Shown in pieces: positions 30,723 through 55,972 of a DNA stretch of 57,763 bases. How positions within the stretch are numbered: position 1 is the first letter of the stretch; every line of letters starts with the position of its first letter. Made by a program: the position numbers and the translations under genes. A model generated the notes under the pieces. It was not told where the DNA came from. It was given only the letters and a program-made list of their open reading frames with translations, and ran no database searches. The stretch is from Ignavibacteria bacterium (GTDB taxonomy: Bacteria > Bacteroidota > Ignavibacteria > Tepidaquicellales > Tepidaquicellaceae), in NCBI GenBank assembly GCA_016783945.1, contig JADHVP010000006.1, forward strand, positions 1-57,763. The letters are read 5' to 3'.

Positions 30723-30873
30723 TATTTAATTTGCAAGAGAAATATTTATGCTTAGTGTTTTTGATGTTGCCTGTGTGTATTTGAACGAAGTATTTCAGTT
30801 TGAGTTATTTTAGAGTAGTATATCGATGAATTTGCTTCTGTTTAATCTAAAATAGTCGTTGCTCATCTGATTA

Positions 30874-31116
30874 TATCTAAGTATATTTGATAAATATACA
30901 CGCATAAAATTAAATTATACATATATAAAGTTAAATTATACACGTATAATAAATAAATATATACGTATAATTATAATTTATATATGTATATTAATAAATT
31001 ATAATAGTATAATAGTATATTATACATGTATATAATATAAATATACATATATAAAATTAATATATACTTGTATAAAAAAGAAATATACACGTATATTTTA
31101 TAAATATACCTTGCAT
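30874..31116. repeat. 21-bp-phased array of palindromic sites (consensus TATACAYGTATA)
   Basis: Ten 12-base cores start at 30895, 30916, 30937, 30958, 30979, 31000, 31021, 31042, 31063 and 31084, exactly 21 bases apart. Examples are TATACACGTATA (30937 and 31084), TATACATGTATA (31021, a perfect palindrome) and TATATACGTATA (30958). Degenerate half-sites continue the phase at 30874 and 31105. Nearly every G or C of the array falls in core positions 5-9, whereas the 9-base spacers are almost pure A/T. Two helical turns per unit would put all sites on one face of the DNA. It lies in the intergenic region between divergent genes (30672 and 31248). No protein was identified that binds it. Confidence 0.85.
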
Positions 31117-31247: not shown

Positions 31248-31874
31248 ATGGTCAAAGTTAAATTAGGATTAAAAAACCTTTCTGTACTGAAAAAAATCAC
31301 GAAGGCTAACGCAATAGTCAACCAGATGACGGGAAATCCGAATTTTACGAATCCAAATCCATCACTTGCAAACATGAGTGCTAAGATTAGCGAATTGGAA
31401 TCGGCAAAAGTACAGACGGAAGTTATTAAGAAGCAGTATCATACACAGGTTAATCTGCAAAAAAAGGTTCAGACAGAATTGGATTCGATGATAAAACAAC
31501 TTGCAAGCTATGTTAATAATGCCTCAACAGGTGATTCAAAAAAAATTCTTAGCTCAGGGTTTGCAGTTGCTGCAAAACCGGGGATGGTAAGAGAACTGTA
31601 TCCACCTGAAGATTTTATCGCAAAGACAGGCGATGAAGAAGGGGAGGTCAATTTGTCATGGAAGAAACTCAGGAGAGTCGGCAATCATACTTACCATGCA
31701 TTCGGAAGAAAATATGGTTCACAGGAAAAGTTTAAACTGTTGGCTGGAACTGACCAGAAAAAGGTTGCTATCAAAGGTCTCGAGAGCAGCGGGAAGTATG
31801 AGTTGTATGTGCTGGGTGTGAAGGAAAATGTTCCCGGACCTCCAAGCGAAACGGTTGTTGTGAAGGCAGGGTAG
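31248..31874 (+). CDS. Coiled-coil plus fibronectin-III-like protein, function unknown
   Basis: 208 residues without a signal peptide. The N-terminal 110 residues are helical and probably coiled coil (MSAKISELESAKVQTEVIKKQY, QKKVQTELDSMIKQL). The C-terminal 75 form a fibronectin type III-like domain ending LYVLGVKENVPGPPSETVVVKAG. A second, truncated copy of that end lies at 44637-44870, so this is a small gene family in this genome. Family members elsewhere are known to me only as hypothetical proteins. The 21-bp dyad array lies 130 bases upstream and might control it. Confidence 0.75.
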   Translation: MVKVKLGLKNLSVLKKITKANAIVNQMTGNPNFTNPNPSLANMSAKISELESAKVQTEVIKKQYHTQVNLQKKVQTELDSMIKQLASYVNNASTGDSKKILSSGFAVAAKPGMVRELYPPEDFIAKTGDEEGEVNLSWKKLRRVGNHTYHAFGRKYGSQEKFKLLAGTDQKKVAIKGLESSGKYELYVLGVKENVPGPPSETVVVKAG

Positions 31875-40165: not shown

Positions 40166-40275
40166 TTTTGCTCCTTCTGTATTAGACTATCTCGAAGTAA
40201 ATCCTCTTACGTTAAATAGTACAAATTAATTTTCATACATTATTTTATTTTAGTCTTGATACTTATTATAAATAT

Positions 40276-40311
40276 CATAATATTGTTGTAGAATGATTAA
40301 ACAACAATATT
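40276..40311. promoter_or_regulatory. Distal operator-like inverted repeat for the TrmB-type gene
   Basis: AATATTGTTGT (40279-40289) and its exact reverse complement ACAACAATATT (40301-40311) are separated by 11 bases. The 18 bases CATAATATTGTTGTAGAA (40276-40293) are repeated exactly at 40490-40507, next to the gene's start. This suggests two binding sites for the same regulator. Confidence 0.7.
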
Positions 40312-40489
40312 ATTACTTAAGAATAGATCTCAAATATGTATGCGTTCTTTTAATCAACAGAATATTTATTAACAGATTTAGGATAACAATTAATAATATA
40401 ACATAATTAGAATTAGTTTTCTAATTTTAATTAAAGCCTGGAATTGATTGACTTTAAAAAATTTTTTCATTGACAATAAAAATTTAATT

Positions 40490-40520
40490 CATAATATTGT
40501 TGTAGAACCGTACAACAACA
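40490..40520. promoter_or_regulatory. Proximal operator-like repeat overlapping the TrmB-type gene start
   Basis: Second copy of CATAATATTGTTGTAGAA, with TTGTTGT (40497-40503) facing ACAACAA (40512-40518). It ends six bases before the ATG at 40526. This is strong reason to take that ATG as the start, because the longer TTG-started frame from 40448 would place the operator inside the gene. It probably mediates autoregulation. The spacing between half-sites is three bases shorter than in the distal copy. Confidence 0.7.
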
Positions 40521-40525
40521 CACAA

Positions 40526-41395
40526 ATGAAGCCCAAAGACCTGCAAGATAAACTTAAGCAATTAGGATTCACAGAAAAAGAATCGAAAGTATTCTTCGCT
40601 CTTTTGCCTGGCGAACAGATGAGCGCCTCAGAAGTCGCAAAAGAAGCAGGTATTCGAAGAACGGATGTTTATGATATATTAAAAGCATTCGTTACTAAAG
40701 GATACATTAATGAAATTGAAACAAGCTCTGTGCTTAAGTTTGAGATTATCAATCCACGTGTTGTATCAGACAAGATTCAAAATGATCTAAGAGTCAATCT
40801 CAACAAAGCTCTTAGAAATACTCAAAATCTGTTTACTGATATCCAACCATTATACAAAACAAAGACTATTGAAAGAAGTAAAACAAGTAATATTGAATTA
40901 ATCAGAGGGTACAACAGGCACAGGCATATCAGATTTTTTGAACTTATTACGAATTCTAGTAAAGAAATTTTAATGATGAATCGTTTAGAAGGACACATTT
41001 CTAAACAAGCTGATGAAGTTACTCAGGAGTTTTTGAAGCGGGGAGGTATTTATAAATCAATTTACGAAGTTAGTTTAAATTTTAAACTCGAAAAAGAAGA
41101 AAAGTGGTCTTCTGTTACATTAGAAGATTTTATCGATTTATGTAATTATTATGAAAAATGTGGAGAGCAAATTAAGTTAACGAAGATGCTTATTGCGAAC
41201 TTTACAGTTTTTGATAGGGAAATAGTTTTTTTGAATGTTCACGATAAGACAGTACCTAAACACAATAAGACAGATATTATTGTAAGGAATAAAGATTTTG
41301 CACAATTTATTGTAAATATTTTTGAACTTTGCTGGACGCAGTCATTCACAGTAGGTGAATTTGCTGAGATTTCGAATTTAAAAAAGAAGAAATAA
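40526..41395 (+). CDS. TrmB-type transcriptional regulator
   Basis: 289 residues from the ATG at 40526, chosen because the N-terminal sequence MKPKDLQDKLKQLGFTEKESKVFFALL starts the winged-helix domain and a repeat operator lies directly upstream. The first 85 residues are a TrmB-type winged helix (LGFTEKESKVFFALLPGEQMSASEVAKEAGIRRTDVYDILKAF). The C-terminal region has a possible ligand-binding domain of the PLD-like kind (LIRGYNRHRHIRFFELITNSSKEILMMN), usual for TrmB. The effector is unknown; sugars are known for archaeal relatives. The next gene downstream is the PIIPT peptide, 94 bases away. Confidence 0.82.
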   Translation: MKPKDLQDKLKQLGFTEKESKVFFALLPGEQMSASEVAKEAGIRRTDVYDILKAFVTKGYINEIETSSVLKFEIINPRVVSDKIQNDLRVNLNKALRNTQNLFTDIQPLYKTKTIERSKTSNIELIRGYNRHRHIRFFELITNSSKEILMMNRLEGHISKQADEVTQEFLKRGGIYKSIYEVSLNFKLEKEEKWSSVTLEDFIDLCNYYEKCGEQIKLTKMLIANFTVFDREIVFLNVHDKTVPKHNKTDIIVRNKDFAQFIVNIFELCWTQSFTVGEFAEISNLKKKK

Positions 41396-41489
41396 TTTTA
41401 AAAGAATTTAGTTTATTAAAACATTATAACCTCTATAAATAAAATAACTTAAACACATTTTCTTAAATAAACAAATAGGAGAAATTAAA

Positions 41490-41627
41490 ATGAAGACTTC
41501 TCAACAAAGAAAGCCAATAATTCCGACACATTGTAAACCGATTATACCGACTTACGATTGTCCGATTATTCCAACTTATGACGGTCCAATAATTCCGACT
41601 AACAATAGTCCGATTATTCCGACTTAA
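41490..41627 (+). CDS. Small peptide of five PIIPT octapeptide repeats
   Basis: 45 residues with a good Shine-Dalgarno sequence (AGGAG, 41477-41481). PIIPT occurs at residues 9, 17, 25, 33 and 41, exactly every eight residues, with variable triplets HCK, YDC, YDG and NNS between. All base differences among the five PIIPT copies (CCA/CCG, ATA/ATT, ACA/ACT) are at third codon positions and silent, so the amino acids are under selection and the frame is real. There is no signal peptide and no membrane segment. The N-terminal eight residues (MKTSQQRK) are a short basic leader. It follows the TrmB-type regulator and precedes the T9SS gene by 62 bases without a terminator. The T9SS protein itself contains PIIPSFNS. 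Function unknown. Confidence 0.8.
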   Translation: MKTSQQRKPIIPTHCKPIIPTYDCPIIPTYDGPIIPTNNSPIIPT

Positions 41628-41689
41628 GTATACCAAGAAGAAAACACTTTTAAAAATTCTTAAAAATTATTTTATAAAGGAAAATCAAA

Positions 41690-42667
41690 ATGATAGCAAG
41701 AAATATTAATTATTTATTAAAAAGCTTTTTAGCAATTATAGTCGTTCTCTTCTTTTTTAATAACGGCTATTCAACTGTCATAAGCGGAACAGCAATGTAT
41801 TCAAATACAAATGAACCTGTACCTAGTGGTTATGTTGAAATATTATATATTGATGATATAACAGGGGAAACAGTATTATTGGGAGCTTATGTAATACAGA
41901 CTGATGGTCAATTTAATTTTACAGTAAATACAACAGATTCAATTTTTGCAATAATTTATCCAAGTGATCCTGAAGAAGAATTAGATTTTATTCCTACCTA
42001 TTTTCCGAATAAAATCAATTGGGAACTAGCAAATTTCATAATTCCTAACGGAAGTACAATGGATATTGAAATATTTTGCGAATACAGAGGTGAAGCTCCA
42101 ATAATTCCATCGTTCAATTCATACACTGTTACGGGTAAAGTAACTTCCAGTAATTTTGATGAAGTTTCAAGAGCCACGGTTATAGTTATGCAGGATGGTA
42201 ATGCATTCACATGCGGAATAACAGATGAAGATGGAAATTACACTGTAAACGTACCCCCCGGAGAATTTGACATATACGTTGATAAATTAGGATATGTCAG
42301 CGATACTAAATCAATTTCAGCAGCAGGTTCGAACGATGCACCAATCAATGTAGATTTTTCAATAAGAAAACCAGGTGAAGATAACTTTAAAAATACAACA
42401 CCTGTGAACTTTAAGTTATCTCAGAACTACCCGAATCCGTTTAACCCAGCAACTACTATAAATTTTGACATTCCTGTGAACGGTAATGTAACATTGCAGG
42501 TCTTCGACCTTTCTGGTAGGGAAGTCGATGTTTTGATAAATGAATTCAGAACCGAAGGTACATACAGCGTCAACTTTAACGGAGAAAGTTATTCGAGTGG
42601 TGTTTACTTCTATAGACTGACAGTAAACAATTTCACTGATACAAAGAAAATGTTACTAATAAAATAA
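41690..42667 (+). CDS. T9SS cargo with carboxypeptidase-regulatory-like domain
   Basis: 325 residues: a signal peptide ending NNGYS, an N-terminal beta domain (GTAMYSNTNEPVPSGYVEILYID), a linker containing PIIPSFNS, a CarboxypepD-reg/carbohydrate-binding-like domain (VTGKVTSSNFDEVSRATVIV ... GNYTVNVPPGEFDIYVDKLGY), and a type A sorting domain (NYPNPFNPATTINFD ... SSGVYFYRLTVNN). It probably adheres to or coats the cell surface. It has a Shine-Dalgarno AAAGGA and lies 62 bases after the PIIPT peptide, so the two are likely co-transcribed. A GC-richer hairpin (42685-42705) follows. Confidence 0.85.
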   Translation: MIARNINYLLKSFLAIIVVLFFFNNGYSTVISGTAMYSNTNEPVPSGYVEILYIDDITGETVLLGAYVIQTDGQFNFTVNTTDSIFAIIYPSDPEEELDFIPTYFPNKINWELANFIIPNGSTMDIEIFCEYRGEAPIIPSFNSYTVTGKVTSSNFDEVSRATVIVMQDGNAFTCGITDEDGNYTVNVPPGEFDIYVDKLGYVSDTKSISAAGSNDAPINVDFSIRKPGEDNFKNTTPVNFKLSQNYPNPFNPATTINFDIPVNGNVTLQVFDLSGREVDVLINEFRTEGTYSVNFNGESYSSGVYFYRLTVNNFTDTKKMLLIK

Positions 42668-42748: not shown

Positions 42749-43009
42749 ATGAATTACATAAGCCAACATAAGGATATAAAAATATTGATGAAAGACGGAC
42801 GGATATGCGAAACAAATTATCCGCACTTTCAAGTTGATTATCGAGGGCTTATAGCAAAATTCTCTTTTGATTTAAGTTTGGTAGAAGGAAGATTACCCGT
42901 CGATGTTATGTTGTATGTCCTTGACTGGACACAAAGACATCAGGATGAATTAAGCGATAATTGGAAGCGTCTGCAAAAAAAAGAGCTGTTAATGGAAATT
43001 AATTGTTAA
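42749..43009 (+). CDS. DUF4160-like small protein, copy 1
   Basis: 86 residues. The pattern HKDIKILM, YPHFQVDYRG (25-34), FSFDLSLVEGRLPVDVMLYVLDWTQRHQDELSDNWKRL matches the DUF4160 layout (DIKIxM, PHFHxxY, GxLP, W at the end). DUF4160 genes are often next to DUF2442 and are thought to be toxin-antitoxin-like, but no DUF2442 partner is seen here. It is the first of three tandem paralogues. There is no clear Shine-Dalgarno sequence. Confidence 0.72.
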   Translation: MNYISQHKDIKILMKDGRICETNYPHFQVDYRGLIAKFSFDLSLVEGRLPVDVMLYVLDWTQRHQDELSDNWKRLQKKELLMEINC

Positions 43010-43018
43010 TCAATTAGT

Positions 43019-43267
43019 ATGTGCTTAAATGAATACCAGGACATAAAGATCTCTATTAAAGGTGAAAAGTTTCACTCAACCTATTATCCTCATTTCGAAG
43101 TTGATTACAGGGGGATGATAAAAGCGAAATTTTCATTCGACTTGAGTATTATTGAGGGCAGACTTCCGGTTGATGTTATATTGTACGTTCTTGATTGGGC
43201 AAGTCATAATCAAGATGTATTAGAAAGTAATTGGAAATCTTTAGTAAACGGTAATACCATACACTAA
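43019..43267 (+). CDS. DUF4160-like small protein, copy 2
   Basis: 82 residues, clearly a paralogue of copy 1: YQDIKISI, YYPHFEVDYRG, KFSFDLSIIEGRLPVDVILYVLDWASHNQDVLESNW. The start is nine bases after the copy 1 stop. It begins MCLNEY, unlike copy 1 but like copy 3, so copies 2 and 3 share the same N-terminal start. Confidence 0.72.
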   Translation: MCLNEYQDIKISIKGEKFHSTYYPHFEVDYRGMIKAKFSFDLSIIEGRLPVDVILYVLDWASHNQDVLESNWKSLVNGNTIH

Positions 43268-43297
43268 AGATTCACAAAATTTATAATGTAAGATTCA

Positions 43298-43552
43298 ATG
43301 TGCTTAAAAGAATATAAAGACATAAAAATTTTCATGAAGGTAGATAATAAAATTTACAACATTATTCATCCTCATATCATTGTAGATTACAAAGGGGTGA
43401 TTTCAAAAATATCACTCGATTTTTCGATGATACAAGGTCACCTTCCTATCGAAGTGAAGCTTTATGTTCTTGACTGGACGCTAAACAATAAAAAGGATTT
43501 GATGGACAAGTGGAAGATTTTAACAAATCTAAGAAATAACAAAGCAGCGTAA
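43298..43552 (+). CDS. DUF4160-like small protein, copy 3
   Basis: 84 residues, the most diverged paralogue: YKDIKIFM, HPHIIVDYKG where the family His-Phe becomes His-Ile, ISLDFSMIQGHLPIEVKLYVLDWTLNNKKDLMDKW. The conserved LYVLDW and terminal W are kept. It closes the tandem set and is followed after 114 bases by a terminator. Confidence 0.72.
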   Translation: MCLKEYKDIKIFMKVDNKIYNIIHPHIIVDYKGVISKISLDFSMIQGHLPIEVKLYVLDWTLNNKKDLMDKWKILTNLRNNKAA

Positions 43553-44197: not shown

Positions 44198-44575
44198 ATG
44201 ATTTGGGAATTCAAATGTCCGGTTTGTAAAGAGTGGAAGGAAATTGATTGGGATAGAAAAGACATAAAACATACCTGCCATAAGATGCGTGAATCGTATT
44301 ATCCACCTAATCCAGCAAAACAGCATGATGCATACCTTGATACACACAACTGGACAATCGAGATGGAAGAAATCGTCGTGAAGTTGAGGGGTGAATGCTG
44401 TGTAGTACCGGGGTGTATCAAACGATACCAGACTCTTGACCACAGGATACCGTACTCAGAAGGAGGTAGAACAAGTGTCGAGAATTTTTTCCCGATGTGT
44501 TACGAGCACAACGATGCAAAGGGCGACATGGATTATGACGACTGGCTTGCGGAATACTACCGCAAGATTAATTAG
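44198..44575 (+). CDS. HNH endonuclease
   Basis: 125 residues with a strong ribosome-binding site (CAGGAGG). The C-terminal part is a zinc-supported HNH motif: ECCVVPGC (Cys67, Cys68, Cys73), DHRIPYSEGG (catalytic His82), VENFFPMCYEHNDAKGD (Asn96, Cys101, His104). An N-terminal zinc-ribbon-like pair (CPVC at 7-10, CH near 27-28) may help bind DNA. It probably cuts or nicks DNA and could be mobile or part of a defence locus. A truncated host-type gene follows at 44637. Confidence 0.85.
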   Translation: MIWEFKCPVCKEWKEIDWDRKDIKHTCHKMRESYYPPNPAKQHDAYLDTHNWTIEMEEIVVKLRGECCVVPGCIKRYQTLDHRIPYSEGGRTSVENFFPMCYEHNDAKGDMDYDDWLAEYYRKIN

Positions 44576-44636
44576 GTAATACAGGAATTCTTAAGAAAAT
44601 TCGCAGATATTGTGATTTTACAGACGAAAATCGTCA

Positions 44637-44870
44637 TTGTATAGAAGGAGAAAATTATTTTACTCTTGGATGAGACGGCAAAATACGTACAACGTCTTTG
44701 GCAGGAAGTATGCTTCGGGTAGTGATTTTGCGTTGATGGCGGGTACAGATCAGTCGAAGGTGGACATAAAAGGACTCGACCCGGGTGTTAAGTATGATTT
44801 CTATGTTGTAGGCGTAAAAGAGAACCAACCCGGTCCGCCAAGCGAGACTATTGTCGTGAAAGCTGGATGA
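44637..44870 (+). pseudogene. Truncated 3' remnant of a fibronectin-III-like gene
   Basis: About 66 residues correspond to the C-terminal end of the protein at 31248: FGRKYASGSDFALMAGTDQ, IKGLDPGVKYDFYVVGVKENQPGPPSET. The helical N-terminal two thirds are missing. The frame opens only with a TTG and has no proper ribosome-binding site. It lies 61 bases after the HNH nuclease gene, so a rearrangement linked to that gene may have removed the 5' part. Confidence 0.7.
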
Positions 44871-44889
44871 TGATGAATTAGTAATCTCT

Positions 44890-44930
44890 CTTGCTCCCCG
44901 CTTCGGCGGGGCGTGGGGGAGGGGATTTAG
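44890..44930. repeat. GC-rich hairpin element with TTCG loop
   Basis: CCCCGC-TTCG-GCGGGG (44896-44911) is a perfect stem with a stable UUCG-type tetraloop, followed by a G-rich tail (GTGGGGGAGGGG). It stands out in AT-rich DNA and resembles scattered intergenic GC hairpins of this bacterial group. It could also stop transcription after the pseudogene. Confidence 0.6.
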
Positions 44931-44983
44931 GTGTATTATGTTTTGGGCAAAGATAGTAATTTTATAAAATTAAAAGATAAGTT

Positions 44984-45805
44984 ATGGGAATACAATATAA
45001 ATGTGACAAAAGAAACACAGTTCATATTAAATCAGACAGCAAATATTATGCATTAGGATTTGATTTATATCGTATTGAAAAAGAAGGTATAAAAATACCT
45101 TTAATTAATAATGCACCAAATATCATTGCTTTATTATTAAATATATCTGATAGAGCTTTAGAGCGTGCAGTGAAAATCTATGATAAAGATTTGTTACCAA
45201 CATTAAGTTTAGCAGGTGAAGATTTTGAGAAACATTATTCTTTTACACACAAGAAACACACAGAACTTGAATTTGATCTGTATGAGAATTTGTTTGTTTC
45301 AATTGTATTTGCTTATTCTGCTGTTGAAGCATTTGTAAATAATTTGATTCCAAAAGATTTTAAATACAAAGCGGATTATAAAAGAGGAGGTACGTCTGCT
45401 ACTCTAATTTGCGATACGGAATATATCGGAAAAAATTATTCTGTAGAAGAAAAGATAAATGCAATCCTACCCTTATTATATAGATATGATATCAATTCCT
45501 TTAAGAAAGATAAATCTGAGGAAAAGATTTGTTGGGAAAAGTTTAAAAGGTTAATTGAATACAGACATAAAATTATACACCCTAAAACAAAAATATCTAA
45601 GTTAAAGAAGTTTTCTCAAATTAGATTTATAGCAGATATCTTTATTGATGGTATAAATAAAGAAATCACAAAACCAGCTAGAGATTTAATAAAAATTTTA
45701 TGTAAAAAAGTCTATAATTCACCTGAGGAAGTAATAAAATCTCCTCACATTCCATATGAATTCGCAGAGGAACTACCAAAATTTCAGAATTACGAACTGT
45801 TTTAA
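44984..45805 (+). CDS. HEPN-like domain protein
   Basis: 273 residues, all helical in character. The middle has a hydrophobic helix FVSIVFAYSAVEAFVNNLI with Glu115, and later FKRLIEYRHKIIHPKT, which contains the R-x4-H motif (Arg194, His199) of HEPN ribonucleases. A missing signal peptide places it in the cytoplasm. HEPN proteins often serve as RNA-cutting toxins or abortive-infection effectors. The next gene, 48 bases on, encodes a membrane-anchored protein. The toxin role is inference. Confidence 0.6.
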   Translation: MGIQYKCDKRNTVHIKSDSKYYALGFDLYRIEKEGIKIPLINNAPNIIALLLNISDRALERAVKIYDKDLLPTLSLAGEDFEKHYSFTHKKHTELEFDLYENLFVSIVFAYSAVEAFVNNLIPKDFKYKADYKRGGTSATLICDTEYIGKNYSVEEKINAILPLLYRYDINSFKKDKSEEKICWEKFKRLIEYRHKIIHPKTKISKLKKFSQIRFIADIFIDGINKEITKPARDLIKILCKKVYNSPEEVIKSPHIPYEFAEELPKFQNYELF

Positions 45806-45853
45806 ACTTTATTTTATTAAAAAAATATTTAATGAATATTAAAATTATTTATA

Positions 45854-46735
45854 ATGGATACGTTAATCATAAAGGAAGTTTCTGATAAATATTCTTTTTA
45901 TGGAGTATCTCCAGATACAATATTCACGGTTATCATAACGCTCAGTATTTTTTTATTGGGATTTGTAATTAAAGGATTCTATGAATGGTTAATGGAGAAT
46001 ATGAAGTTAAAAAAAACAGAATTATTTTTTTATAGTTTACTTGATTCATTAATAAAAACTATTGATGAACAGATCGAAATTGATGAAAATCTATCAAGAA
46101 ATATAATGAATGAAGAAGTGCGGGATTTTTTTTACGATGAAAAATTATTTGCATTAACAAAAAGTTTTAATTCATTAGAATATCTTGATCTATTCAAAAT
46201 TTTCATTTTAAAAAAGAAGAAGCTTAATCTGGATGAAAAAAATATTGTATTTATTCGAATAATAAAAATAATAGAATATATCAAAGAACATTCAAAGTCT
46301 TCTGAGAAAATTTTCTATCAATTTTTAAATGATGCAAAAAGATTTGAAAGGGATTGGGGTATTAATATTAGTTTTATAAATAATACATTTAATTCTTTCA
46401 GATCAGATGCTAAAAGATTAGATATTGGACCAAGTAAAGATCCTTTTTTAAAAGAAATGGATATTATTTTCCATAATTTGGGTAAACAGAAAAATTATAG
46501 ATTTGTATCTATTGCGAACAATAATCTTATTAAACCTCTTAAAATCCTATGTGATAAAATGATTGAAGATGAAAAAGCTAAGAAAATACTTCCTGCTGTA
46601 ATGAATTGTTGGGAAGCTCATGATAATGTTTTTAAAACTAAAAATTTATACTCTGATTTTTTATTAAAGGAATCAAATGATTTGAAAGATAAGAAAGAAC
46701 TTCTAGAGAAAGCAATCATATTTTTCAAAAATTAA
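45854..46735 (+). CDS. Membrane-anchored helical protein next to the HEPN-like gene, unknown
   Basis: 293 residues. One transmembrane segment (FTVIITLSIFLLGFVIKGFY, about residues 24-43) is followed by a long charged helical region with many Lys, Glu and Ile. No family is recognised. Its tight spacing to the HEPN-like gene and high A/T content suggest a shared, possibly acquired, two-gene unit. Confidence 0.65.
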   Translation: MDTLIIKEVSDKYSFYGVSPDTIFTVIITLSIFLLGFVIKGFYEWLMENMKLKKTELFFYSLLDSLIKTIDEQIEIDENLSRNIMNEEVRDFFYDEKLFALTKSFNSLEYLDLFKIFILKKKKLNLDEKNIVFIRIIKIIEYIKEHSKSSEKIFYQFLNDAKRFERDWGINISFINNTFNSFRSDAKRLDIGPSKDPFLKEMDIIFHNLGKQKNYRFVSIANNNLIKPLKILCDKMIEDEKAKKILPAVMNCWEAHDNVFKTKNLYSDFLLKESNDLKDKKELLEKAIIFFKN

Positions 46736-55393: not shown

Positions 55394-55972
55394 ATGAAAA
55401 AATCATTTCTTCTTGTAACACTCATCCTGTGTATAGTAAGCTCGAATATTATTGCCCAGGAAAGTAAGTTTACAGAAATAAACACAAGATTCTCAGGCGA
55501 TGATGCATGGAAGGACTGGAATATTAGAATGAATGGAGAATATGGAAGCATGAGTACAACTTTTTCAGGTGATGATGCCTGGAAAGACTGGAGGATAGAT
55601 CTCCCAAGTATTGATGGTTCTATATCAACGACATTTTCAGGCGATGATGCATGGAAAAACTGGGGTTTTGATTTTGGTGAAAGCGATGGCTCGATGAGTA
55701 CAGTATTCTCAGGCGATGAGGCTTGGAAGGACTGGACGGTTTCAAATGGTTCCAATACTTTAAGTATCAGCACTGTTTTTTCCGGAAGCGATGCATGGAA
55801 AAGCTGGAGAATTACTGGACCGGAAGGTGATATGGAAGTAAGCACTGTCTTTTCGGGTGATGATGCCTGGAAGAACTGGAGGATTTCTGATAATATGCCA
55901 TCTGAAGAAGTTGCTTTAAAAATGGCTGCGATATTTGTTTGTGTTTTTTCAGGAGCAATTTTGAATAAATGA
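55394..55972 (+). CDS. Exported protein with six exact 24-residue FSGDDAWKxW repeats
   Basis: 192 residues with a signal peptide ending IIAQ. FSGxxAWKxW begins at residues 33, 57, 81, 105, 129 and 153: six copies exactly 24 apart, with almost invariant AWK and final W and with (S/I)ST before each. The DNA copies differ mostly in silent positions (for example TTC/TTT TCA/TCC/TCG), so the protein sequence is constrained. After the repeats is a short hydrophobic tail (ALKMAAIFVCVFSGAILN). The period and the aromatic/Gly/Asp pattern suggest a stacked beta-solenoid or amyloid-like fibre; this is inference. No known family is recognised. Confidence 0.75.
   Translation: MKKSFLLVTLILCIVSSNIIAQESKFTEINTRFSGDDAWKDWNIRMNGEYGSMSTTFSGDDAWKDWRIDLPSIDGSISTTFSGDDAWKNWGFDFGESDGSMSTVFSGDEAWKDWTVSNGSNTLSISTVFSGSDAWKSWRITGPEGDMEVSTVFSGDDAWKNWRISDNMPSEEVALKMAAIFVCVFSGAILNK

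Follow-up and report, generated by a model that had tools for sequence, protein, structure and literature searches.

A PIIPT-repeat peptide gene inside a TrmB-T9SS module of an Ignavibacteria bacterium, possibly encoding a docking-motif microprotein

A short open reading frame (ORF) lying between a TrmB-type regulator and a T9SS-tailed exported protein encodes a 45-residue peptide with five identical PIIPT cores, whose DNA differs from unit to unit by silent changes only. The explanation we favour, with a probability of about 0.35, is that the ORF is translated into a disordered cytoplasmic microprotein, in which the five PIIPT cores form a multivalent docking ligand for a co-encoded partner. 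In detail, a TrmB-T9SS module would have acquired the peptide gene between its two members, the regulator and the exported protein; the peptide gene would be co-transcribed from the operator-controlled TrmB promoter, and its intrinsically disordered product would remain in the cytoplasm. The feature under selection would be the PIIPT short linear motifs, held eight residues apart by tolerant spacers, and the five motifs would act as a multivalent ligand of one binding pocket. The pocket would most plausibly belong to the TrmB regulator encoded with the peptide or, before export, to the neighbouring exported protein; this choice of partner is a guess. Such an array would account for the invariant cores, the tolerant spacers, the lack of a fold and the operon position. 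If the peptide is translated, this would be a case of tandem-repeat gene birth caught early, with selection already visible within one array, and of a component added to a regulator-cargo module.

The features of the locus are reported in Table 1. The window, i.e. the whole stretch of 57,763 nucleotides analysed here, is contig 89 of a 2.73 Mb genome assembled in 139 contigs and 78% complete.

Table 1. Features of the regulator, repeat peptide and exported protein locus (positions in the window).
Feature	Position	Strand	Description or evidence
Upstream promoter-like site (TTGATA) and first palindrome, AATATTGTTGT-N11-ACAACAATATT	40256..40311	+	Sequence, promoter scan
Promoter TTGACA, 16-17 nt, TAATAT/AATATT	40470..40518	+	Overlapped by putative operator TTGTTGTA-N6-TACAACAA at 40497-40518
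TrmB-type winged-helix regulator, 289 aa	40526..41395	+	Pfam TrmB 1.3e-15; multi-copy family in the order
Ribosome-binding site AGGAG of the repeat peptide	41478..41482	+	Sequence
Repeat peptide gene, 45 aa	41490..41627	+	MKTSQQRK, then five PIIPT cores with spacers HCK, YDC, YDG and NNS
Exported protein, 325 aa	41690..42667	+	Hydrophobic N-terminus, carboxypeptidase-regulatory-like domain, T9SS C-terminal sorting domain (Pfam, NCBIfam TIGR04183)

The encoded peptide has the layout MKTSQQRK-(PIIPTxxx)4-PIIPT, and the full reading of the ORF is MKTSQQRKPIIPTHCKPIIPTYDCPIIPTYDGPIIPTNNSPIIPT. The cores start at residues 9, 17, 25, 33 and 41, with a period of eight, and 20 of the 45 residues are Pro (10) or Ile (10); the corresponding 24-nt array was also detected by Tandem Repeats Finder. 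An earlier note, made from the sequence alone, had given the same coordinates, peptide sequence and eight-residue period, all of which proved exact on re-reading, and had pointed out Cys in two of the four spacers (HCK and YDC), as we also find. Its good ribosome-binding site corresponds to the AGGAG placed ~8 nt before the ATG, and our inspection agrees with it that the peptide has no signal peptide or membrane segment. The AlphaFold model, obtained from single-sequence input, is without secondary structure and of low confidence (pLDDT 58, pTM 0.13), which fits the predicted disorder of the chain.

Selection on the peptide is supported by the substitutions inside the array. When the five cores of 15 nt are compared, every one of the five third codon positions varies, against none of the ten first and second positions (p = 1/3003, 3.3e-4), and the spacers, unlike the cores, vary mostly at the residue level. 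The simulated chance of silent-only changes was 1e-4 on a star tree and 1.7e-3 when the changes common to units 1 and 4 are counted once; these array p values do not take into account that this array was picked from the tandem repeats of the window. That the differences among units are all silent, and that this speaks for selection on the peptide, had already been proposed in the earlier note, and both points are borne out, within one array and on seven substitutions. Silent changes exceed amino acid changes in the conserved part, as expected for a coding gene, again within this one array. Coherently, the codon score of the forward frame (+3.2) is the sole positive one of the six, the other frames ranging from -13 to -29. 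An origin of the array as an 8-nt satellite was ruled out, as positions 8 nt apart agree no more often than by chance and the array has no 8-nt sub-repeat, which would generate octapeptides by its mechanism alone. RNA structure was also considered as the selected feature and rejected: 5.9% of the synonymous permutations fold with an energy as low as that of the array, which is not significant.

Then, we searched for relatives of the peptide. No homologue was found in the 44 genomes of the order, nor in a sample of 396 genomes of the phylum, where the weak matches inspected (e.g. SPNHPIIQ and HHPIIPSP arrays) are low-complexity repeats. The pattern P[IV][IV]PT-x3-P[IV][IV]PT retrieved no homologue from 84,980 species genomes. 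Viral contigs gave none either, their seven matches being one sequence with PIIPT only in a 27-codon stop-to-stop frame, and the same holds for the phages and the solved structures searched. Taken together, whatever the searches returned was a proline-rich segment, a low-complexity or intergenic repeat or a match in another frame, and some returned nothing; the genome of the peptide itself has, outside the array, five further matches to the core pattern, each of them single and isolated. The genomes searched included none from the same genus. As no homologue was found, conservation between species was not observed in the order, the phylum sample, the species genomes or the viruses. The earlier note had expected relatives of the peptide at the equivalent locus that differ in the number of repeat units; none was found, and the 56 other TrmB loci lack such a peptide. 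In the full-text literature searched, we found no mention of PIIPT as a peptide. We also considered a derivation of the peptide from the adjacent exported protein, which holds DFIPTYFP and PIIPSFNS. DFIPT[YF] recurs in several TrmB-partner proteins but PIIPS does not, and the resemblance is therefore most likely a coincidence.

The TrmB regulator and the exported protein form a conserved module of two genes. In the order, TrmB regulator homologues are present in 38 of the 44 genomes, with up to seven per genome. At the 56 other TrmB loci, where the downstream genes were taken considering the orientation of the locus, the next gene lies at a median distance of 28.5 nt. A sequence-motif test found a T9SS-like C-terminal tail in 46 of the 51 complete neighbours, while the remaining five, 140-146 residues long, have a hydrophobic N-terminus. 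None of the 56 loci holds a small ORF with a ribosome-binding site between the two genes, and the larger distances seen at four of them most likely reflect an internal start picked by the ATG-only rule. The window follows the same arrangement, with a TrmB-type gene closely before an exported, T9SS-tailed protein, except for the gap between them: it measures 294 nt, an exception among the loci, and holds the peptide gene. Compared with the other loci, the peptide gene is an addition to a module of two genes. Pfam agrees with the earlier note on both flanking genes, a TrmB-type regulator upstream and a secreted protein downstream, the latter carrying the T9SS tail and being homologous to the C-terminal regions of the proteins encoded after other TrmB copies.

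The TrmB gene is preceded by a TTGACA promoter overlapped by a putative palindromic operator, which ends 7 nt before the TrmB ATG and has no other exact match in the genome. Its half-site TTGTTGTA occurs also at 40283, within the upstream promoter-like region, and a looser second palindrome is found ~215 nt further upstream of the operator. A TTGACA promoter with a palindrome in a comparable layout is present upstream of most TrmB homologues, and the regulator of the window is probably an autoregulator. It shares the winged-helix domain of the TrmB family (PF01978), well above the cut-off, but scores far below the NCBIfam equivalog cut-offs of the sugar-sensing TrmB/TrmBL1, from which it also differs in belonging to a multi-copy family paired with T9SS cargo. 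The TrmB-type regulators of this multi-copy family stand directly before exported, mostly T9SS-tailed proteins (loci L070-L085, L143-L182 and 40256-42667). This suggests that a TrmB family with palindromic operators could control T9SS cargo locally, in a dedicated and one-to-one manner. On TrmB together with type IX secretion, the full-text literature searched, which lacks most subscription papers, gave one unrelated paper. The regulator-cargo module may be a more useful finding than the peptide it surrounds.

The locus lies in a block beside a tRNA-Met gene. Most members of the family share the etfB-tRNA-Met neighbourhood; in the stretches of up to ~12 kb beyond it, 14 relatives have no match to the regulator, the three DUF4160 genes, the HNH gene or the HEPN gene. 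The matches of the exported protein in these relatives are short and fit the T9SS tail, and two other proteins of the window match the same places. The lack of counterparts beyond tRNA-Met places the peptide, on gene content, in a variable or accessory block. No attachment-site repeat of the tRNA-Met end of at least 14 nt was found in the window. The three tandem DUF4160 paralogues (42749-43552) are weakly similar to the DhiT toxin, below the cut-off, and no antitoxin was recognised beside them. Genes for an HNH endonuclease, a HEPN-like protein and a protein of unknown kind containing a hydrophobic segment (44198-46735) lie in the accessory block beside tRNA-Met.

As stated above, we favour a docking array, and among the alternatives raised in the earlier note a scaffold or binding module would fit best. 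The same-strand cluster behind a genome-unique operator, the AGGAG site and the absence of an 8-nt sub-repeat speak for it, while the 56 TrmB loci that manage without the peptide speak against it. Since all signs of constraint come from within a single array, a neutral origin is nearly as likely: a young 24-bp minisatellite, open by chance in one frame after an ATG, and either non-functional or translated without function. Coherently with this, the array is known from one genome only, it lies in the variable block beside tRNA-Met, a block that relatives lack at this position, the phylum commonly has intergenic tandem repeats that translate into octapeptide-like units (e.g. the SPNHPIIQ arrays), and VIPTERSE-type arrays occur elsewhere. 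These octad-like repeats of Bacteroidota and others resemble the array as tandem DNA translating into Pro/Ile-rich octapeptides. However, they were seen with no linked start, ribosome-binding site or gene context, whereas the window array has a ribosome-binding site and the best codon score of the six frames, it has no short sub-repeat such as an 8-nt sub-period, and it alone was noted for silent-only cores (p 1e-4 to 1.7e-3, uncorrected for the choice of the array). On balance, we consider the peptide more probably than not a real but very young gene. The boldest form of the docking array, a newly born gene whose PIIPT motifs bind TrmB or the export cargo as a new multivalent modulator and tune the TrmB-controlled T9SS module, appears unlikely.

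Three further explanations involve the product or its translation. A leader peptide, whose Pro/Ile-rich repeat would set ribosome speed during translation and so control the expression of the exported protein, is improbable: the ORF does lie directly upstream of that gene, which starts 63 nt downstream, it has the 10 Pro and 10 Ile, and the fold of the 305-nt region is somewhat more stable than those of shuffled sequences (z -2.67), but the region has no terminator-like hairpin and no Rfam match, the folding energy of the array is not clearly below that of synonymous permutations (5.9% as low), the Pro-Pro stall motif is absent and the exported protein is not a biosynthetic gene. Slightly less probable is a signal or effector peptide for TrmB, made beside its receptor and with the repeat units cut out. 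Rap-Phr, PlcR-PapR and Rgg-SHP are regulator-peptide pairs of this kind, and the likeness lies in a small ORF directly behind a regulator, here probably autoregulated and with a single exact operator in the genome. Differently from those pairs, the regulator belongs to another family, the peptide has no export signal, no homologue of it accompanies the other 56 TrmB loci, and no processing site is conserved in the spacers.

The least probable explanation, and a very improbable one, is a multi-core precursor of a ribosomally made and modified peptide (RiPP), an analogy drawn in the earlier note that finds no support here. As in multi-core RiPP precursors (e.g. graspetides, PMC8939145), tandem short repeats with spacers follow a short basic N-terminus, and Thr and Cys are modifiable; however, the leader, MKTSQQRK, is far too short at eight residues, the core is perfectly invariant and the peptide has no relatives. 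The proteins encoded between 26.5 and 57.4 kb and scanned with Pfam include no maturase or other modifying enzyme, which extends the earlier note's remark that none is adjacent. The linked radical-SAM or YcaO genes it suggested looking for did not appear: neither YcaO nor a LanC-like protein is encoded in the genome, which is 78% complete, and one SPASM radical-SAM match, like the RimK-type matches, lies on other contigs.

Other repeats and fragments were observed in the window. A small fibronectin-III-like ORF (44637-44870) resembles the C-terminal part of a 208-aa protein (31248-31874), of which it is probably a truncated copy. Tandem repeats of type STTFSGDDAWKDW, of ~27 residues each, occur in a protein at 55394-55972, and an AT-rich tandem array of TATACATGTATA-like palindromic units spans 30870-31109.
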